Shown here: one piece after another, positions 2,506-26,511 of the stretch
How the letters are laid out: each line of letters starts with the position of its first letter
Position numbering within the stretch: position 1 is the first letter of the stretch
The notes under the pieces: generated by a model
Seen by the model: the letters and a program-made list of their open reading frames with translations, nothing else
What the model was told of the DNA's origin: nothing
The model's database searches: none
From: a virus
Length of the DNA stretch: 27,758 nt
Virus record (IMG/VR): IMGVR_UViG_3300037847_000874
Span: 1 to 27,758 of that record
Reading direction: 5' to 3' (one strand)
Made by a program: the position numbers and the translations under genes

Positions 2506-2913
2506 TTATGATATGCTTTCGCTAGTTTTTCTTAATGCGTTATATGCTTGTTGGCACATTTTAATATCGTTATCAGCTTGTTTATCAAAATACAAACCAT
2601 CTACTGCGTAACTATATGTAATATCTTTAATATCTTTTACATTTATGCCTAATGCTTTTATATCTTGTTCTAGCTTTTTGCTATTTTTTTCAATTTTAAC
2701 ATTACGCTTTTGTATGTTTTCTAAATGCCCCATAGCTTTAGCTAGTTCAGACATAGATGAACGTAGTATTTGTCTAAACTTACTTCTTGATTTATCATTA
2801 GCAGATACATCTGACATAATATCATCGTGTGTACCTAACTCTACCTTATGCGTGTCTAGTTCTATACCATTAAATAGTTTACCTAGTGCTATGTTTAATT
2901 CTTTATTGTTCAT
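2506..2913 (-). CDS. Small coiled-coil virion/scaffold-associated protein carrying a KVELG motif
   Basis: 135 aa, strongly helical and charged, with a coiled coil over about residues 45-95. Residues 23-27 are KVELG followed by THDD, the same short motif found near the N-terminus of three other small helical proteins here. It overlaps the upstream 115-aa gene by one base (TAATG-type junction at 2913). Lying between portal and connector, it is probably an assembly or internal virion protein. No catalytic motif. The function is unknown, and the motif may mark processing by the phage protease. Confidence 0.7.
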   Translation of the reverse strand: MNNKELNIALGKLFNGIELDTHKVELGTHDDIMSDVSANDKSRSKFRQILRSSMSELAKAMGHLENIQKRNVKIEKNSKKLEQDIKALGINVKDIKDITYSYAVDGLYFDKQADNDIKMCQQAYNALRKTSESIS

Positions 2914-3260
2914 TATATATTGCTTTTTACATTTCTTAAATCTGTAATTGCTTTCCTGTGCTTATCTAAAACTCGTTCAAAGTCGCTTTTTATTTTTTGC
3001 GCTTTATTTACATAATCATCTGCGCCTATATCCTCTGCATAATCCATAGCCTGACCTGTGAGTTTTATAGCTTTTTCTAGTGCGCCTGTTGTATCTGCTA
3101 AATCAGACAAAGCACCCATAACATTTTTCATAGCAGATTTGCTTTTTGCTACTGCCTTATCTCTTAGATTAAGTGCGTCATCTAACATACTTAACTCTAC
3201 TTTTTCAGACTTTAGGTTTAGTCTGTTTTGTTCTTCACTTAAATTCTTAAAGTAATTCAT
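2913..3260 (-). CDS. Small coiled-coil protein carrying a KVELS motif
   Basis: 115 aa, helical throughout. Residues 15-28 read NLKSEKVELSMLDD, closely matching the ITLKTQKVELAVIDD segment of the 142-aa protein at 6078-6506, which suggests the N-termini are related. The remainder is a K/D/A-rich helix (KAVAKSKSAMKNVMGALSDL). It starts 14 nt after the portal stop. Likely an assembly chaperone, scaffold or internal head protein; no enzyme motif seen. Confidence 0.7.
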   Translation of the reverse strand: MNYFKNLSEEQNRLNLKSEKVELSMLDDALNLRDKAVAKSKSAMKNVMGALSDLADTTGALEKAIKLTGQAMDYAEDIGADDYVNKAQKIKSDFERVLDKHRKAITDLRNVKSNI

Positions 3261-3274
3261 TTTAATATCCTTTT

Positions 3275-5119
3275 TTATTTTCTTATAAAACCTTTATCTG
3301 CTCTACGCTTAGGTGCAATAGCAACACTTCTTTCACTTTTCTTTTGTGGTTCAGGCTTAAACCCAGCACTTCTAGCTTTTGCAACACTTACAACTTTATC
3401 TGTATTTAGTGGTTTATCACCTAACTTAGTAACATATATTCTACGATACCATCTATGGTGGCAATTACCACCACCTTTATACAACCATATAGAATAAGTA
3501 TCTGCACCACCAGCACCCCAGCCTTTATTTACAGGCATTTTACCCATTCTTAATATATCTTCTTTACGATATACTTTGTTTGCTGCTAACATCTTCTTAC
3601 AAAACTCTCTACTATTACCTTCTTCTTTTCTTTTTAAACCTTTATCTTCGTTGTAATAATATCTTACTCTGTAAAGGTTACCATCTCTATCAGTACCGTC
3701 TTGTTCAGATTTTGCTTTAGGTATTGCTCTACCTGTATTAGCTAACTCTAATTTTTCTAAGTTATATTCAAAATCAAAATCAGGGTGTTCGCCTTCTGCA
3801 TCATCTTCATCTACTAACTCCCAGTTATCTAAATCTTCTTCTTCGCCATATTCAGCTAGAAATTTATCTAACTCTGTATATTCAGCTAAATTTTGTTCTT
3901 CAGCTACTGTTTCTTCTTCTTGTGTCAGTGGTGCATATCCTAACTCCTCTCTAATTTCATCTTGTGTCAATACGTCTTTCAGTGTTTCAGCATCAAACAT
4001 AGAATTTAACGGTTTAGCATCTTTTATGCTTAGTGGTATAGTAACACCATTTATTGCTAAAAGTTTCTTAAACGTCTTTAAAAGCTGATTTTGAAAGGGT
4101 TTTACTACACTATTCATATACAATTCGTAGGCTTGTAATAATTCGTTACGACCACCTAATTGACCTTCTGTTTTAACACCTAATAGCATAGGGCTTGTTA
4201 CCCTATGACCTATCATTATGTTCTGTATGCACAATTCATTTAGTACAGTATATTGCTTATCTGCATCAGATACTTGTATAGGTATAATTTCAGGCTTACT
4301 AGCAGCATCATCACTAAACGTAAGTACAAATTTACCAGCATTGTTAGAGCCTGTAAACTTTTTTGCTATTTGTCTTTCTATCTGTACTCGTTCTTCACGT
4401 GTTGGTATGCCATTAGCAAAATTAATAAAGTACGAACCACTAAAACCATTAGTAATATTGTTTAGGTGAAAATCTGATGTTAGATTATCTATCTGTATCC
4501 AATTTGTACTAGCTACATAATCAGGAGTGTGGTATAATTCCATAGCTGGAGAGTATAAACCACTATATAATAATTGGCTACCTTCGCTTCTATCCATCAT
4601 ATTAAATGGCATTATATGCTTAGGTGCGTATTCTTTCTTTCTGTATTGTGTCCAATCTGTACTTAGGTAGTAGCAAGGTACTTTACCATCTTTATCAGGT
4701 ACACCAATTCTAACTTGTTCTACTGGTACGTGGTGTAGTTCAGCTATCTTAGTTTTGTCTTTAGACCATATAACATTTATAGCGTATGCACCTTGTAGTT
4801 TTAAGTCAAAAGCTAATTTCACAAATAGTTCGTGTGCGCTTTCTTGACTATTAACAGATGCTAGAAACTTTTTAAGTGCAACATATTGTGTTAAATCATC
4901 ACTTTCTTCTATTAAAAAATCATCGCCAGCTATCATAGATGCAGTAGCATTAATAATTGCACTATTTGTAGCACTATTGTTATATAAATCTATTAAGTAT
5001 TGTGGGTAATTATTTTTATACTCACCATCACCGTAACCTATCCAATCAGCACCACTAACTTCTATGCTTTTAGGTTGTACTTCGTTTGTTAGATTTATAT
5101 TTATTAGTCTTTCTTTCAT
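3275..5119 (-). CDS. Portal protein with fused C-terminal domain
   Basis: 614 aa. The N-terminal ~400 residues look like a PBSX/HK97-type portal: SAIINATASMIAG (crossing helix region), LKLQGAYAINVIWSKD, HHVPVEQVRIG, and the late signature VTSPMLLGVKTEGQLGGRNE before a helical stem. Residues 400-455 are a highly acidic linker. Residues 456-460 (KLELA) match the motif shared with the small scaffold-like proteins. Residues 482-565 form a separate conserved-looking domain (REFCKKMLAANKVYRKEDI, NKGWGAGGADTYSIWLYKGG, then a C-H-H cluster), followed by a basic tail. The portal ring is the DNA entry and exit channel at one capsid vertex. The ATG at 5117-5119 overlaps the upstream stop as TAATG. Confidence 0.85.
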   Translation of the reverse strand: MKERLININLTNEVQPKSIEVSGADWIGYGDGEYKNNYPQYLIDLYNNSATNSAIINATASMIAGDDFLIEESDDLTQYVALKKFLASVNSQESAHELFVKLAFDLKLQGAYAINVIWSKDKTKIAELHHVPVEQVRIGVPDKDGKVPCYYLSTDWTQYRKKEYAPKHIMPFNMMDRSEGSQLLYSGLYSPAMELYHTPDYVASTNWIQIDNLTSDFHLNNITNGFSGSYFINFANGIPTREERVQIERQIAKKFTGSNNAGKFVLTFSDDAASKPEIIPIQVSDADKQYTVLNELCIQNIMIGHRVTSPMLLGVKTEGQLGGRNELLQAYELYMNSVVKPFQNQLLKTFKKLLAINGVTIPLSIKDAKPLNSMFDAETLKDVLTQDEIREELGYAPLTQEEETVAEEQNLAEYTELDKFLAEYGEEEDLDNWELVDEDDAEGEHPDFDFEYNLEKLELANTGRAIPKAKSEQDGTDRDGNLYRVRYYYNEDKGLKRKEEGNSREFCKKMLAANKVYRKEDILRMGKMPVNKGWGAGGADTYSIWLYKGGGNCHHRWYRRIYVTKLGDKPLNTDKVVSVAKARSAGFKPEPQKKSERSVAIAPKRRADKGFIRK

Positions 5120-5814
5120 TATAAACCGTTTCTATATCTAATATCTTGTATTACTGGTGCTAAATCAGTGTCAGATTTTCTATCATTAAAAAAAACTAAC
5201 TCGTACATAAAACAATCAGTAGCACCATTACCTAGTCTTGTAAAATCAAATAAATCAGTTATAGTTGTAGCAATATTATTTGCAGTTGCATCATCTATAT
5301 CTATTGTTAAAGTTCCATCACTTAATCTTCTCAAAGTCAATAAAAACTTACCAGTTGGTAAGGTACCAGTTGTTAAAGTAGCATCATAGTTAACACCATT
5401 GGCTCTTAATCTCACATTAGCACCATTAGAGCCACGATATAATCTAAATTCATCGTTACCTAAACGACCAAATACTGCTTCATTAGCAGCACCACTTTCT
5501 ACTACATCTAATACTGCTATAATTGTAAATGTACCTAAGTTTAATTGGTCAGAAGTTGTAGATATAAAACCCTTATCAGTAGTGTTAAAATTTACTGCAC
5601 CAGTTGTAGTGTTTATAGGTAAAACACCACTAAGTACATCTAAATCCATATCTTCTGTTGTGTTACCACTACTGTCAGCCCATACAGTTAAATTACCACT
5701 ACTAACGGTTTGACCAGTCTTTAGCTTATACCACGCTTTAATATTTGGTACAGAAGCTATATCAAAGCCTTCTATAATGCCTGTATGTAATTTTAATGCG
5801 TTTGCTAAAAACAT
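5119..5814 (-). CDS. LamG/concanavalin-like virion protein
   Basis: 231 aa, beta-rich. The segment KAWYKLKTGQTVSSGNLTVW followed by ADSSGN is typical of laminin-G/concanavalin-like jelly-roll domains in phage and bacterial surface proteins, and later strands (FTIIAVLDVV, DEFRLYRGSNG, NVRLRANGVN) fit the fold. Such domains often bind carbohydrate, so a surface-exposed head decoration or receptor-interacting protein is plausible. It lies between a small decoration-like gene and the portal, with TAATG coupling to the portal. No signal peptide or membrane segment. Confidence 0.65.
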   Translation of the reverse strand: MFLANALKLHTGIIEGFDIASVPNIKAWYKLKTGQTVSSGNLTVWADSSGNTTEDMDLDVLSGVLPINTTTGAVNFNTTDKGFISTTSDQLNLGTFTIIAVLDVVESGAANEAVFGRLGNDEFRLYRGSNGANVRLRANGVNYDATLTTGTLPTGKFLLTLRRLSDGTLTIDIDDATANNIATTITDLFDFTRLGNGATDCFMYELVFFNDRKSDTDLAPVIQDIRYRNGL

Positions 5815-5815
5815 A

Positions 5816-6076
5816 TTAGTTGCTATAACCTACTGCAACACCACTTGTTATAGTAATTGCAGTAATATTCATAAATAAAACTGTACCTGCTGGTATAGTA
5901 GTGTGTAATGAACTATCACCTGTACCATTAGCGACAGTTATTGCACTAATTACGCTTTGTGTAACAAAGTGTACTGCATAAAAATTTACGCTTGCTTGTG
6001 CGCCTGTAAATATTACGCAGTCGCCTTTTTTTCCTAATTGTTCGTGTAGTAAATCTACTGTATTTTTTATTGCCAT
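5816..6076 (-). CDS. Small structural/decoration-like protein
   Basis: 86 aa. Hydrophobic, Thr/Val/Ala-rich C-terminal half (SVISAITVANGTGDSSLHTT, ITAITITSGVAVGYS) predicted as beta strands. The composition fits a capsid decoration or small tail protein. The stop lies one base before the next ATG. I do not recognise a named family. Confidence 0.65.
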   Translation of the reverse strand: MAIKNTVDLLHEQLGKKGDCVIFTGAQASVNFYAVHFVTQSVISAITVANGTGDSSLHTTIPAGTVLFMNITAITITSGVAVGYSN

Positions 6077-6077
6077 T

Positions 6078-6506
6078 TTATATTGCTTTTATAATTTGTT
6101 TAAAATCATTTTCTTGTTTTTCAAATGTATCTATATCATCTTCTAAACTTTCTACTATTTTAACTACTTCATTAACACCATCAATACTTTTAGCATCAAT
6201 ACCTAACTCTTTTGCTGATGTTGTCAATTTAGTTACAGTCTTTTCTATACGACTTATTAAATCTTTCATATCTTCTACGTCTAATTGTACGTCTTTATAT
6301 GTATCTTCAATTTTCATTATACGACCTCTAACATCTAAATAATCATTCCTTAAATTAGCTACATTTTTAGATACTAAACTATCCATACCTTTAGCTTCGT
6401 TTAATAATTTTTTAAAATCATCTATAACTGCTAACTCTACCTTTTGTGTTTTAAGCGTTATTCTATCTAATTCGCTTTTTGCTTTATTTTCAAAATTTAA
6501 ATCCAT
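6078..6506 (-). CDS. Coiled-coil protein carrying a KVELA motif
   Basis: 142 aa, almost wholly coiled coil (NLRNDYLDVRGRIMKIEDTY, DMKDLISRIEKTVTKL). Residues 22-26 are KVELA in the context ITLKTQKVELAVIDD, matching the 115-aa protein at 2913-3260. It is tightly packed between structural genes. A scaffold-like or internal core role is plausible by analogy with phages in which several small helical core proteins are cleaved by the head protease. Function unproven. Confidence 0.7.
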   Translation of the reverse strand: MDLNFENKAKSELDRITLKTQKVELAVIDDFKKLLNEAKGMDSLVSKNVANLRNDYLDVRGRIMKIEDTYKDVQLDVEDMKDLISRIEKTVTKLTTSAKELGIDAKSIDGVNEVVKIVESLEDDIDTFEKQENDFKQIIKAI

Positions 6507-6509
6507 TTT

Positions 6510-6938
6510 TTATATGTTTAAATATACTGTGTTACTATTTAATGTATTTGTGTTATCTGTTGGCGTGTATTGTGTATATGATACCTCTGTTATTGCTGGG
6601 TTAGAAACAAACGCTTTACCTTTTTCTACTGCTAAATTATCACTTAATGCAGCTAATTCTTCTTTAGTCAAACTTAAATCTGTTACTTCATATATAGTAT
6701 ATGTGTAAAAACCTTCTTCATCAGGTAACGTATTAGGTGGACTACCAACAGCATCGTTAAAAGCAAAAATAGAGTATCTAGGGTAATTAGTCATAGAGCC
6801 ATATGTAAAATATTCTTCTTTAGTCATATCATTTACTAACTTCATATTGTAGTAAATTGTTACACCAGCATTGTTTACCCTTTTTTCTCTAAGTGTAACT
6901 GGTAAATGATTTGCTATACCTTTGACTATATGTACCAT
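6510..6938 (-). CDS. Hypothetical structural protein
   Basis: 142 aa of mixed alpha/beta character. Notable segments are HLPVTLREKRVNNAGVTIYY, SMTNYPRYSIFAFND and DEEGFYTYTIYEV, and the C-terminus is Thr/Asn-rich. It is the first gene after a strong intrinsic terminator and has the AT-rich leader shared with two other genes, so it begins its own transcription or translation unit. I recall similar proteins next to tail-tube or capsid genes in Bacteroidetes phages but cannot name the family. Confidence 0.65.
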   Translation of the reverse strand: MVHIVKGIANHLPVTLREKRVNNAGVTIYYNMKLVNDMTKEEYFTYGSMTNYPRYSIFAFNDAVGSPPNTLPDEEGFYTYTIYEVTDLSLTKEELAALSDNLAVEKGKAFVSNPAITEVSYTQYTPTDNTNTLNSNTVYLNI

Positions 6939-6954
6939 ACTATAAAATATAAAA
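6936..6954 (-). promoter_or_regulatory. Shared AT-rich leader (TATATTTTATA box) before a start codon
   Basis: On the minus strand the ATG is preceded by TTTTATATTTTATAGT. The same 19 bases including the ATG occur at 19369-19387, with a near copy at 9552-9570. These are the starts of three transcriptionally separated or uncoupled genes. It is probably a translation-initiation enhancer suited to Bacteroidetes ribosomes, which make little use of Shine-Dalgarno pairing. Confidence 0.5.
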
Positions 6955-6979
6955 AACTATGATTTATTTACAAATAATC

Positions 6980-7004
6980 AAAAAAAAAGTGGGTATAACC
7001 CACC
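6980..7004 (-). terminator. Rho-independent terminator after the tail-tube-like gene
   Basis: On the minus strand: GTGGGT (7003-6998), 3-nt loop, ACCCAC (6994-6989), then a run of T (6988-6980). It lies 24 bp below the stop of the 186-aa gene and 42 bp above the next start, so it should reduce transcription from the capsid and tail-tube genes into the portal block. Confidence 0.85.
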
Positions 7005-7027
7005 TTTTTCTTTAATTATATCAATTA

Positions 7028-7588
7028 TTAATCTTCATCTATTGCATTGACAGTAAAGTCATCTTGGTCAAATGGATTACTTGTATAATCTTCTACTACT
7101 AATGCAGTATCAGGTTCCATACCTGTAAATGTTAAATCATACCCATTCATATCACCAAATGCTACACCACTCTGTACAGTACCAGCAGTCAATTCCATAC
7201 CATTTACAGAACCACAACATAGTATTGTACGTTTGCCAGCAGCGTTTACATTATTAGTTTCTACAAAAATTACTAGCCTTCTGTTTTGTGCTAATAATTT
7301 TAGTTCGTTTTGGTCGGCAACAGTCATTTTGTGTAGCTTAATATTTACTTCAGGTTGAAAAAATAAAGTACCATTTTCTGTACTTACATTTACACTTTCA
7401 GTATATGAACCAGTACCACGAGCCAAATTGTATTTAAATAAATTTGATGTTATAACAAATTCAGTTAAAACACCACCACTCGTAGTTAATGTAGATACAT
7501 CAGCTAATTGTACAAAATAGACTGCTTTAATACCACCAATACCATCTCTACAATCAAGACCTCTACCCTTAGTTAATTCGCAAGCCAT
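7028..7588 (-). CDS. Major tail protein (tail tube)-like
   Basis: 186 aa. The start MACELTKGRGLDCRDGIGGI followed by a beta-rich body (KAVYFVQLADVSTL, NGTLFFQPEVNIKL) and an acidic C-terminus (DQDDFTVNAIDED) match a pattern I associate with tail-tube or major structural proteins of Bacteroidetes phages. It follows the major capsid gene and is bounded by a stem-loop upstream and an intrinsic terminator downstream, consistent with an abundantly made structural protein. Assignment by memory and context. Confidence 0.55.
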   Translation of the reverse strand: MACELTKGRGLDCRDGIGGIKAVYFVQLADVSTLTTSGGVLTEFVITSNLFKYNLARGTGSYTESVNVSTENGTLFFQPEVNIKLHKMTVADQNELKLLAQNRRLVIFVETNNVNAAGKRTILCCGSVNGMELTAGTVQSGVAFGDMNGYDLTFTGMEPDTALVVEDYTSNPFDQDDFTVNAIDED

Positions 7589-7610
7589 ATTTTTTTATAT
7601 TTATTAGTTA

Positions 7611-7633
7611 AGGGGGGGTTGTTACACCCCCCT
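7611..7633 (-). terminator. G/C-rich stem-loop between capsid and tail-tube genes
   Basis: Minus strand AGGGGGG (7633-7627), 9-nt loop, CCCCCCT (7617-7611). The 7-bp stem is strong but no U-run follows, so it is a partial terminator, RNA-processing or stability element rather than a full terminator. Confidence 0.6.
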
Positions 7634-7649
7634 GTACTTATTTTAATTC

Positions 7650-8564
7650 TTAGTCTAATCTTACAATATCACCACCTTGTGCGTGCTGACAACCACCTGT
7701 AAATTTAGCTACAACTCTGATGTTATCAGAACCATCTAAATCAGCCATATCTAGCATACGAATTTCAGTGTGGTCAGATAATAAATCTGTACCAAAGAAT
7801 AAATTAGATGCTTGACCAGCAGCCATTTTATTCTCTACCATACCAGGACATACTGCTAATTTAATACCTTCAAATTCAGGAGTATATTGCCCCATATGAT
7901 TGAATGGGAACGCAGATAAAGCAGAAATTGCATTAATATATAATCTGTAAGAAGTTGGTGATAAATAGATATACAAATCTTCTTTAGTATATACTGCACT
8001 AGGAATTGCAGCAGCAATAATACCTAAGTTAGCAATAATGTTATCAGCAGTAAATGGACTACCAGCACCACCTTGATTATCAGCTTCTACAATAGTAGCG
8101 TCATTTTCAAAGTAACCGTTACCAGCGTGCATAAAGCCTGTAAACTCACCAGCATTACCATCTAAACCATTCCATATATTAGTTTCTACGTGGTCTGCAA
8201 TAGTGCCACTTAGATAAGACATAACAAAAGCAGTAAAATCAGCACTCATATCTCTATTGTGTGCGCCAGCTCTCATTTGTGCAGCTTGCCAATCTTCAAG
8301 TAAATCTTTTTTACATAAATCTACATTGATTTGTAATTCTTTTGGGTTAAGCACTCTTTCTGTTAAAGTAAGTGTACCAGCATCAGAGAAATCACACGTA
8401 GCATCTACAATCATACCTGATGTAGCTACCTTTGTAATGTTTCTTTTAAATTTAACGTTCTCTAATACAGTTAAGTATTCAAGAGATTTAGCAGATTTTA
8501 ACGCAGCAGCGATATACTGACCAGCGTGTTCTCCACTATAATTTGAAGTAATATCAAAACTCAT
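7650..8564 (-). CDS. Major capsid protein
   Basis: 304 aa. The N-terminus SNYSGEHAGQYIAAALKSAK with LENVKFKRNITKV, then VDATCDFSDAGTLTLTERVL and PKELQINVDLCKKDLLEDWQ, is the pattern I associate with Bacteroidetes-phage major capsid proteins of probable HK97 fold. The middle contains KEDLYIYLSPTSYRLYINAI, typical of the P-domain region. It is preceded by a scaffold-like gene and a protease gene, the standard head-morphogenesis neighbourhood. No long N-terminal delta domain is visible, so scaffolding is probably supplied by the separate upstream proteins. It should be the most abundant virion protein. Confidence 0.82.
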   Translation of the reverse strand: MSFDITSNYSGEHAGQYIAAALKSAKSLEYLTVLENVKFKRNITKVATSGMIVDATCDFSDAGTLTLTERVLNPKELQINVDLCKKDLLEDWQAAQMRAGAHNRDMSADFTAFVMSYLSGTIADHVETNIWNGLDGNAGEFTGFMHAGNGYFENDATIVEADNQGGAGSPFTADNIIANLGIIAAAIPSAVYTKEDLYIYLSPTSYRLYINAISALSAFPFNHMGQYTPEFEGIKLAVCPGMVENKMAAGQASNLFFGTDLLSDHTEIRMLDMADLDGSDNIRVVAKFTGGCQHAQGGDIVRLD

Positions 8565-8565
8565 T

Positions 8566-9210
8566 TTATTTATTATTTAGGTTATACATATATTTTTCTT
8601 GTGCATTTAATTTATCGTAGTCTGCTCTACTTAATTGTACTTTAGGTGTGTTGCTAGCAAATTTACGTGCCTTTACTGGCTCTGCGCTAGGCTCACTACC
8701 TAATGCGTTTACTTGCTTAGATAACTCAATATTTTCGTTTTGCAAGTCTACTATATTTTCATCTTTAGCTAAATTTTCACCTCTTAGTTCGTCTAATTCA
8801 GCTTTGATTGTGTTTAATTCGCTAGTAACATTTTCTAGTAATTCTCTTACTACGTTACCAACTTCTTCGAGCATAGTTTCTTCTGATGAATATTCTTCTT
8901 TGTCTTTCTTCATATCATCTTCTTCTTCTTCTTCTTGCTCTACTTCTTCTTCTTTTGCAGATACTTCTGTTACTACACCACTTTCATCAGTAGTAAACTC
9001 TGTACCATCTTCTAAAGAGTAAGTACCTTGTGGCATTGGAGTTTGCTCACCATCTTCTGATAAGATGTTAAGTACAACACCCTCTACTAATTCATCTGCT
9101 TCTGATACTATAATAGTACCATCTACTAATTTAGCTTCGTAAGCTAATTTTACTTCTTGTTCTTCGGTATCTATACCTAAAGCAACTTTTATTCTTTCTT
9201 TTAAATCCAT
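8566..9210 (-). CDS. Capsid scaffold-like protein with two protease-site-like motifs
   Basis: 214 aa. Residues 75-115 are an extremely acidic stretch (runs of E/D). Residues 115-170 form a coiled coil (VGNVVRELLENVTSELNTIK and onward), a layout typical of phage scaffolding proteins. Two sites resemble the KVEL[AGS] motif: EVKLA at 19-23 and KVQLS at 190-194, near each end. The gene stop lies 2 bp before the MCP start, and it overlaps the upstream 114-aa gene by one base (TAATG). The likely role is templating procapsid assembly before removal by the XkdF-like protease encoded two genes upstream. The cleavage itself is inference. Confidence 0.75.
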   Translation of the reverse strand: MDLKERIKVALGIDTEEQEVKLAYEAKLVDGTIIVSEADELVEGVVLNILSEDGEQTPMPQGTYSLEDGTEFTTDESGVVTEVSAKEEEVEQEEEEEDDMKKDKEEYSSEETMLEEVGNVVRELLENVTSELNTIKAELDELRGENLAKDENIVDLQNENIELSKQVNALGSEPSAEPVKARKFASNTPKVQLSRADYDKLNAQEKYMYNLNNK

Positions 9211-9554
9211 TATCTTAATGCGTTACTGATTAAATTAAATAAATCTGATAAATCACTATCTAAACCTTGTGCTTCTTTGTATTCAGTAATATCATAAGGC
9301 ACTATACCTAATGCTTTTGCTTGTTGAAACACATCTGTTTTTATTGGTCTAAACTCTCTAACAAGTTTTTCTGTATCTTTACTTAGTTCTTTCATTTCTT
9401 TTTTTAAACGACTAAATTCCTTTATTTTGCTCTCGTTTTTAGAAATGAAACTTTTAACTTCTTTATTGATACTTGCTAAATTTTTGACATTAGCTAACTC
9501 AACTTTTTCAGCTTTCTTAAACTTACTAAGTTCGTTGTAAAATTTATTCTCCAT
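9210..9554 (-). CDS. Small coiled-coil protein carrying a KVELA motif
   Basis: 114 aa, highly charged helix. Residues 17-21 are KVELA (context KKAEKVELANVKN). A coiled coil spans about 30-75 (FISKNESKIKEFSRLKKEM). It lies between the protease and the scaffold-like gene, the classical position for a head-assembly accessory or core protein. It starts from the AT-rich leader shared with genes at 6938 and 19371. Function inferred from context only. Confidence 0.7.
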   Translation of the reverse strand: MENKFYNELSKFKKAEKVELANVKNLASINKEVKSFISKNESKIKEFSRLKKEMKELSKDTEKLVREFRPIKTDVFQQAKALGIVPYDITEYKEAQGLDSDLSDLFNLISNALR

Positions 9555-9570
9555 AATATAAAATATAAAT
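9552..9570 (-). promoter_or_regulatory. Variant copy of the TATATTTTATA leader
   Basis: Minus strand ATTTATATTTTATATT directly before the ATG, differing at two positions from the two identical copies at 6936-6954 and 19369-19387. Confidence 0.45.
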
Positions 9571-9584
9571 TAGTTTGTTTTGTT

Positions 9585-10871
9585 TTATTTTGCGTCTATT
9601 TCTTTTAATTTACTAATTGCCCAATTAACACCACTAGAACCTCCCCAAGCGTCCCACATCAAACCACCACAACCTTCACTATATGGTACGTCTTTGTGTT
9701 GCTGGTGTCGCTTAAAACTAGCCATACGTGCTATTGTATCTCTACTTATAGGCTTTCTATCTGCTAGTTGCCTTGCTCTTGTCCAGCCTACTTGTGTACC
9801 ACAATCACTACCATTTTCTTCTTTCCATTCTATTGCTCTCTTAGCGTTGTTAGTAGCACCTTGTGGGTAGTCAGTATAGCTTTCTAAATACTTACGCTTT
9901 TTTTTCTTTTTTTTTTTAGCATCAATAGGTACGCAGTTAGGTACTTTACGACCATCTTTAATTTTATGTCCATATGGCTCATAACCTTCTGTACAAGGGT
10001 TAGGTGTTATTAGGTCAGTATCTAAACAGTTACAATCTTCATCTAATATAGCTGCTAAATTCTTAATTATATCGTGGTCTGCACAAGGCATATATACAGT
10101 TTTACCATCTTGTGTATGCTCGTGTACACCCTCACAACCCATTTCTTTAGCAACCTCTAATGCTTCTTCTTCATTGTCATATACAGGTAGTTCTATACCG
10201 TCAGTTATCATTGTACCTACTTTCTCTTGCTCTACTTTGTGTTTACCTAATGTTTCCATTTTATCTACAAAATAACCCTCTATACTTAAACCTTTTAACT
10301 CACCACTTTTTATACGTTGCCAAACCTCATCGTTGTTTACTCGCATAGATACAAACCACGTACCTTTTGGCAATTCATAGCCATACAAATTACTTTTATC
10401 GTTTTTGCTATTTTCTACTATCCAACTTTCTACTGTATGCACCCCAGTTACCTTTTCTTCGTGTTGTAAGGTCGCATTGTTAGTATTATGATGCTTCATA
10501 TACGCTTCTGCTGCTTTACGCACTGTATCAGCAGTAAAATACACATAGTAGTTTTTATCTTTGTTAGCATCGTATCTGTATATTTGTTTGTAAGGTATCA
10601 AAGCTGGACTTACTAATAATCTTTCTTCTTCGTTTACTTTAGCAAATGTTAAGTTATTTTTAACATCATTAAAATATACAAAATCAGTTTCTATTGCTGG
10701 ACTTGTAACTAAAGATATTGCATCTATTGCTAGTTCTTCGTTATCTTCATCTACTACTAATTCTACTATATCGTATGTTTTGTGTGCTTCTTCGCACTCT
10801 TGCAAGGTGTCGTATTTACACTTACCGTCACCAAATCTATATTTACCGTTATCACATTTTTTACAAGGCAT
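9585..10871 (-). CDS. XkdF-like prohead serine protease with fused N- and C-terminal domains
   Basis: 428 aa. Residues 1-30 are a Cys-rich leader (CKKC, C-x11-C spacing). The protease core (about 32-210) has the family-type opening DAISLVTSPAIETDFVYF, a candidate catalytic histidine in TLQHEEKVTGVH (H137) and a candidate serine in LKGLSIEGYF (S196). Residues 245-315 are Cys-rich, then comes a poly-lysine linker (319-327). Residues 335-428 form a second conserved-looking domain (YPQGATNNAKRAIEWKEENG, VGWTRARQLA, GGLMWDAWGG). The core family processes scaffold and head proteins during capsid maturation. It lies immediately upstream of the scaffold and capsid genes. Confidence 0.75.
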   Translation of the reverse strand: MPCKKCDNGKYRFGDGKCKYDTLQECEEAHKTYDIVELVVDEDNEELAIDAISLVTSPAIETDFVYFNDVKNNLTFAKVNEEERLLVSPALIPYKQIYRYDANKDKNYYVYFTADTVRKAAEAYMKHHNTNNATLQHEEKVTGVHTVESWIVENSKNDKSNLYGYELPKGTWFVSMRVNNDEVWQRIKSGELKGLSIEGYFVDKMETLGKHKVEQEKVGTMITDGIELPVYDNEEEALEVAKEMGCEGVHEHTQDGKTVYMPCADHDIIKNLAAILDEDCNCLDTDLITPNPCTEGYEPYGHKIKDGRKVPNCVPIDAKKKKKKKRKYLESYTDYPQGATNNAKRAIEWKEENGSDCGTQVGWTRARQLADRKPISRDTIARMASFKRHQQHKDVPYSEGCGGLMWDAWGGSSGVNWAISKLKEIDAK

Positions 10872-26253: not shown

Positions 26254-26511
26254 TTACAATTTATTACAATTAGTTATATGTCCATTAAGTATTTCTATTG
26301 ACATTTTGTATGCTTCTATTTTGCCTTGTGTCCACTCTGTTAAAGTATCGTTGCCTATGTCTTTGTAATGTACTTGTGCTTTTTCTGCATCTTGTAATAA
26401 TTCTTCTAGCAGTGCTAGTTTACATCTTGCTGAATATGTTACATCACCTAGTTTTACTTTTTGTACTTGTACTTTGCAAGTTTCATTATAGATTTTAGTA
26501 TAGTTTGTCAT
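26254..26511 (-). CDS. Hypothetical early protein
   Basis: 85 aa, three cysteines. YNETCKVQVQKVKLGDVTYS, then helices (CKLALLEELLQDAEKAQVHY, GKIEAYKMSIEILNG). No recognised domain. It follows a strong hairpin in its leader. Confidence 0.65.
   Translation of the reverse strand: MTNYTKIYNETCKVQVQKVKLGDVTYSARCKLALLEELLQDAEKAQVHYKDIGNDTLTEWTQGKIEAYKMSIEILNGHITNCNKL

Follow-up and report, generated by a model that had tools for sequence, protein, structure and literature searches.

A recurrent KVEL[AGS] peptide at the module joints of phage head proteins, a probable processing site of an XkdF-like prohead protease

Introduction

In phage T4, gp21 cuts the capsid-targeting leaders of internal proteins after L/I-x-E, and the mature parts of these proteins vary (PMC9026906). 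The protease of phage SPN3US cuts the portal as well as its own C-terminal propeptide, at sites proven by mass spectrometry (PMC10052503), and in phage P1 the 30-residue N-terminal signal of DarB suffices for head targeting of a protein (PMC9024508). For proteases of the XkdF type we found no cleavage sites in the literature searched, which was open-access only, and an earlier description elsewhere is possible. Here we analyse a head-gene module encoding such a protease, in which a short peptide, K-V-E-L followed by a small residue, recurs at the joints of several proteins.

Results

Head genes of the window and its relatives

The window, as we call the whole stretch of DNA analysed, is a virus record of 27,758 bases, from a marine phage, whose head genes lie on the minus strand, as do the window features given below in the form x..y. 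An XkdF-like prohead protease with extra C-terminal domains is encoded at 9585..10871 (Pfam PF14550, E 3.6e-21), a scaffold-like protein at 8566..9210 (from gene order and alignment with relatives) and the inferred major capsid protein at 7650..8564 (from gene position and a match to PHROG 11320, an unnamed family, E 1.7e-30). The portal protein, which carries a C-terminal domain beyond residue ~460, lies at 3275..5119 (PHROG 33693, E 6e-78); its match to Pfam Phage_portal (E 1.8e-8, 34.4 bits) is under the cut-off of 39.1, and its family membership comes via PHROG 33693. The slot that separates the small structural genes from the portal is highly variable: the window gene at 5119-5814 (231 residues) is replaced by proteins of 800-860 residues in L002 (8080-10491) and L004 (7681-10251).

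We scanned IMG/VR with the protease, the capsid protein, the portal, two cassette proteins (the small proteins described below), an alignment of distant proteases and the P12024L fusion protein. Together with one scan of genome contigs this gave a total of 326 loci, counting the window and one annotated record, some of them overlapping stretches of one contig. The P12024L fusion as query returned three loci only. The single match among genome contigs, L217, carries this phage head module on a contig binned as Pseudooceanicola (Alphaproteobacteria), and is probably a mis-binned phage contig. Searches with portal and capsid found full-length cultured relatives only in the Nonlabens phages P12024S and P12024L, and it is solely through this relation that a host can be suggested. 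No cassettes were found in cultured phages with window gene 6078-6506 as query, no cassette gene was recognisable among the head genes read in P12024S/L, and cassettes were undetectable in 22 of the 61 loci that have both protease and portal.

The motif in the window and the four small proteins that carry it

The original prediction, which took KVEL[AGS] to be the recognition site of the XkdF-like protease, proved correct in the placing of every peptide that it quoted. KVELA occupies residues 17-21 of the product of gene 9210-9554 and residues 22-26 of that of gene 6078-6506, KVELS residues 20-24 for gene 2913-3260, and KVELG residues 23-27 for gene 2506-2913. Variants are found in the scaffold (gene 8566-9210; EVKLA at 19-23 and KVQLS at 190-194), the portal (gene 3275-5119; KLELA at 456-460) and the protease (IVELVV at 35-40); the motif is absent from the inferred major capsid protein (7650-8564). 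In 2000 composition-preserving shuffles the head region would be expected to hold 0.021 copies of KVEL[AGS] against the four observed, and the remainder of the window holds none. For K[VIL]EL[AGS] the corresponding figures are five observed and 0.066 expected, and a loose form that admits EVKLA, [KRE][VIL]x[LM][AGS], gives a weaker excess (8 versus 2.3, p = 0.002). A conserved KVKLGDV in many relatives of the non-head gene at 26254-26511 tells us that this loose form yields false positives.

Each small protein can be divided into a leader, a junction and a body. Leader A (MENKFYNELSKFKKAEKVEL, 9495..9554) is kept at the same position in relatives with divergent bodies. Its KVELA junction (9492..9506) is a proposed protease site by motif position, shuffles and the residue-order control described below, and the helical cassette body (9213..9494), a family member with ...AKALG..., falls in one body cluster with L010_8754, a slot-C protein. 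Leader B (MDLNFENKAKSELDRITLKTQKVEL, 6432..6506) is conserved in its slot, reading MDLNFENKAKSELDRITLKxxKVEL in near relatives, and meets its body (6081..6431) at a KVELA junction (6429..6443) recognised by motif position, shuffles and relatives; similar bodies stand behind leader A elsewhere, with 86% identity in L122 and 75% in L011. Leader C (MNYFKNLSEEQNRLNLKSEKVEL, 3192..3260) and leader D (MNNKELNIALGKLFNGIELDTHKVEL, 2836..2913) are likewise conserved in their slots, and their junctions, KVELS at 3189..3203 and KVELG at 2833..2847, were identified by motif position and shuffles. The leader-C body (2916..3191) is 49% identical to a protease-fused body in L109, and the leader-D body (2509..2835) shares a cluster with that of L216_6967, a protein of a distant phage whose leader is unrelated. 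Median within-slot leader identity in near relatives is 70% for A, 76% for B, 91% for C and 96% for D, and the bodies within one slot are 23-26% identical (23% in slots C and D). Thus the small proteins show the trait known from T4, a conserved short N-terminal leader before a divergent mature part. Pfam and PHROG gave no significant family for them, only weak coiled-coil matches.

The original prediction held that these proteins otherwise differ. This is so for the bodies, which have diverged, but all four come from a single divergent family of helical proteins. Near-invariance in the family alignment is limited to two pairs of residues, E-L in KVEL and L-G in ...AKELG.... One could therefore regard the proteins as coiled-coil paralogues related by ancestry only, KVEL as an inherited remnant and its other occurrences as coincidence. 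Because the small proteins are homologous, the recurrence of the motif among them is indeed partly shared ancestry and not fully independent evidence. Against the low identity of the bodies, however, the V/I and L positions of KVEL are conserved at over 90% (in leader-distinct junctions, a set partly motif-selected). Non-homologous portals and scaffolds, moreover, carry the motif at module joints, and cassettes are exchanged precisely at it. Already strained by the portal and protease-fusion data given below, ancestry as the whole explanation appears quite improbable.

The motif is enriched in specific head-protein families

We defined a strict motif, [KR][VIL][ED][LF][AGS], and compared its occurrence with the expectation from shuffles in the first 217 loci, whose proteins gave 62 families. 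A clear excess over chance was seen in only three of these: the small-protein family (47/65 versus 1.4 expected), the portal (16/62 versus 2.3) and the scaffold/protease cluster (16/145 versus 3.7). A second, distant clade (L244-L323, 21 families) served as a held-out test with the motif fixed in advance, and there the excess was confined to the scaffold (14/58 versus 1.0 expected), the small proteins (8/10 versus 0.3) and the protease (7/42 versus 1.5). Enrichment beside XkdF genes in relatives, as the original prediction would have it, was thus observed against shuffles, and specifically in head-substrate families. The distant clade also contains new leaders, such as MKRISLHKVMAKLASQPEKVELA, MSREKALKRINEYLAKQPQKVELA and MNKPLEIINRMNKVELA, and several in which the motif is in tandem, such as METHKRIYNKLADKVELASEKIELA.

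A profile of the body built without the junction found 103 non-redundant small proteins, 72 of which have the strict motif within their first 60 residues (1.0 expected). Outside the set used for profile building the motif is present in 39 of 62, and in the distant clade in 23 of 31. When the residue classes of the motif were placed in other orders, the best of 23 alternatives matched 6 of the N-termini, against 72/103 for the observed order. Composition or coiled-coil bias as the source of the motif is ruled out by the shuffles together with this 24-order control.

Sites in the portal and the scaffold

The portal site proposed in the original prediction, KLELA in the linker (3740..3754), is supported by relatives, where the motif lies at the joint between the portal and its C-terminal domain. 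In divergent portals this part of the linker reads KVELA, KVELS, RIELA, KVEFA or RVDMA, mostly right before a conserved xTGxAxPNxxSxQDG that leads into the C-terminal domain. Among 44 non-redundant full-length portals, all 13 strict motif matches fall inside the linker; the motif is degraded in some portals (KINFV, LNFT) and lost in some.

From its sequence the scaffold would consist of an N-terminal helix, a beta domain, a coiled coil and a C-terminal helix. Support for its N-terminal EVKLA (9142..9156) as a site comes mainly from relatives, since the position reads KVELA, KVEFA or KIELA in the distant clade. It is degenerate in some close relatives (VQLM, IKLE), and we therefore regard this site as probable, not firm. 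KVQLS near the C-terminus (8629..8643) is doubtful: alignment with relatives gives KVELS or RVELS in near relatives only, and elsewhere what is kept is an LS starting the C-terminal helix, which removes KVQLS as a general maturation site. In Nonlabens phage P12024L, gene 1 (L218 179-1228) fuses protease and scaffold in one protein, and both parts match PHROG 24921. This fusion has EVKMS between its parts, resembling a release site, and AVKLG before the scaffold beta domain.

Bodies are exchanged between leaders at the junction

Across the loci we found nine cross-slot pairs of bodies that are 74-97% identical behind unrelated leaders. The closest pair, the bodies of L002 slot C and L163 slot D, is 97% identical over 97 residues; L164 slot C and L174 slot D share 94%, L012 slot D and L122 slot B 93%, and the bodies of L010 slot A, L012 slot C and L160 slot D are 77-87% identical. 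DNA identity in the nine pairs is 34% across the leader, rises to 81% over the KVEL codons and stands at 83% downstream. In the swapped cassettes the A, G or S that follows KVEL goes with the body, and KVxL with the leader.

The breakpoints fall at the KVEL codons, where leaders that are unrelated in other respects share 75-83% identity, and this is what one would expect if the codons were a micro-homology for cassette exchange and the peptide had no role of its own. Yet the 57 junctions use 18 different 12-base spellings of KVEL, which argues for selection on the peptide and not on the DNA, and the peptide is kept in portals, where no swapping was seen. This variety of codons rules out a DNA anchor as the main cause, and we consider that explanation very improbable.

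Among 95 non-redundant junctions (a set partly motif-selected) 88% have A, S or G directly after KVEL. N, K, D or E occurs there occasionally, which makes either the precise bond or a strict [AGS] uncertain. A cut before the small residue and a cut after it would both be compatible with the junction sequences, which cannot tell the two apart.

The XkdF-like protease and its fusions to bodies

The window protease matches PF14550 (Peptidase_S78_2) at 75.9 bits (cut-off 24), with the S78_2 domain at residues 75-200. E-H and G-F-S-I-E-G are invariant in the distant-clade protease alignment, and His137 and Ser196 of the window protease match the family's invariant His and Ser; these two residues are presumably catalytic. 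A search of PDB sequences with the protease returned no match. The C-terminal part of the protease (9585-10180) comprises three small domains, one DUF3721-like, one with 'GYEPYGHKxKDGRKVPNC' and one with 'YTDYPxGATNNAKRA'. The same three recur in portal linkers (L098, L104, L109, L136) or as separate genes, and the 'YTDYPxGATNNAKRA' domain also turns up in haloviruses and Roseobacter phages, as part of portal, protease and capsid proteins.

Several relatives have a body joined to the C-terminal side of the XkdF protease, with the same KVEL-type junction between them. The L098 fusion has a KVELG joint and a body 55% identical to the L010/L160 bodies; that of L109 has KVKLS, with a body 54% identical to L195 and 49% to the window slot-C body. 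Other joints read KVELG (L140), KVELA (L100), KIELA (L150), KVNLG (L063) and KIDLA (L056), and in L117 KVELS follows the last protease domain. The proteases of L102, L103 and L105 are 98-99% identical to that of L098 yet end just before the joint. In L045 a Cys-containing N-terminal domain takes the role of leader, with a KVELS joint. The motif at both leader/body and protease/body joints supports the four small-protein sites of the original prediction.

In the AlphaFold model of the L098 fusion the protease domain ends in a helix (186-198) and a helical hairpin body starts at 209, with KVELG (204-208) inside the non-helical stretch 199-208. A Foldseek comparison of this model with the PDB, which was dominated by the model's helices, gave no match at E <= 0.001. 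For the window slot-B cassette, leader, junction and body are predicted to form one long helix, so that the slot-B junction would not be an obviously open site; the cassette model had no Foldseek match among viral models at E <= 0.001.

This predicted helix, in the short-leader protein modelled, suits another reading, in which leader and KVEL form an uncut docking or assembly element that binds a prohead partner (scaffold, portal or protease) and remains part of the protein. Conservation of the motif together with the leader suits it also, and a common partner would account for the motif in several head proteins, the same element in portal and scaffold docking to the same partner. However, the motif is retained by leaders that have nothing else in common, and it recurs where the protease meets a body and within the portal linker, in every case between two modules. 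The small residue preferred directly after it is common at scissile bonds, and a head protease is encoded next to these genes. We consider docking unlikely, if the least unlikely of the alternatives.

Autoprocessing of the protease at IVELVV, as suggested in the original prediction, does not hold: the peptide corresponds to a conserved core beta strand in the protease domain, confidently modelled in L098 (E7-12), with no small residue behind it. A better candidate, still a weak one, is NLTFA (residues 73-77, 10641..10655), which matches a loop in relatives with pLDDT < 50 in the L098 model. In other clades this loop reads KHEVELK, NQEFKLAE or NLTF[AS]K. The first two closely resemble the leader junctions of the same clades, and this loop is possibly a self-cleavage site there.

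Discussion

The KVEL-type peptide always separates an N-terminal anchoring part from what comes after it, and the head modules in question encode a head protease. It is the sole feature common to unrelated leaders, a protease domain, a portal core and a scaffold helix, and the simplest explanation is thus a site for a protease acting in trans. We conclude that the window probably encodes a modular set of head proteins processed at KVEL[AGS] junctions by its XkdF-like prohead protease. As regards the recognition site originally predicted, the small proteins and the portal support it, the scaffold N-terminus probably belongs with them, KVQLS is weak and IVELVV is rejected. The portals, the scaffold and the protease fusions form a stronger part of the evidence than the small proteins.

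We envisage the following sequence of events. Each of the four small proteins has a slot-specific leader of ~20-26 residues, which K-V-E-L-[A/S/G] joins to a helical body that can be exchanged. Most likely the leader carries the body into the assembling prohead, where the protease would cut the junction, the leader would be removed and the free body would stay inside the head, as with gp21 and the internal proteins of T4. The portal linker KLELA and the scaffold N-terminal EVKLA are probably cut at the same type of site, and the place of the leader may be taken by the protease domain in some relatives. Bodies move among leaders by recombination with breakpoints at the junction.

What the bodies do is a more tentative matter. 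A possibility that we would hold open, short of favouring it, is that XkdF phages, probably of marine Bacteroidota, have an open cargo system, in which small helical, effector-like bodies are swapped behind a fixed set of cleavable leaders (or the protease), packed in the head in changing combinations and passed on together with the DNA, plausibly to counter host defences. If the bodies are injected, they offer a route to new counter-defence factors. More generally, a concrete and testable cleavage specificity is proposed for XkdF-type head proteases, and many 'hypothetical' small genes of uncultured phages become predicted head-packaged proteins, which the cassette architecture makes simple to spot in metagenomes. 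Such leaders may also be worth trying as tags that bring proteins into phage heads.

The closest likeness is to the internal proteins of T4 (IPI-IPIII and Alt), which have a short N-terminal leader with a terminal cut motif, and leaders shared by divergent mature parts; they also are head proteins, several per phage, and depend on a serine prohead protease. Unlike in T4, the motif here is K-V-E-L-[AGS] and not L/I-x-E, the protease is of the XkdF type, leaders are specific to gene positions, bodies pass from leader to leader and onto the protease, and the genome of the window phage is small. No Pfam or PHROG match links the window bodies to T4 proteins. Because motif and sequences differ, we do not count the system as a member of the T4 family.

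SPN3US and phiKZ (gp245/gp175) resemble the window in having one protease and one short motif for many head substrates including the portal, and the removal of the SPN3US protease's C-terminal propeptide is reminiscent of the protease-body fusions in the window's relatives. Unlike in the window, the motif of these giant phages ends in E before the cut and the propeptides are mostly long. The Dar proteins of P1 likewise have an N-terminal signal that targets the head, and differ in being large and in having no known shared KVEL junction. In herpesvirus assemblin a protease is fused to scaffold or cargo with a cut site between them, and a small residue stands at the site (the release and maturation sites). 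The P12024L protease-scaffold fusion with its EVKMS is alike in this, as an analogy only, the sequence and substrates being different.
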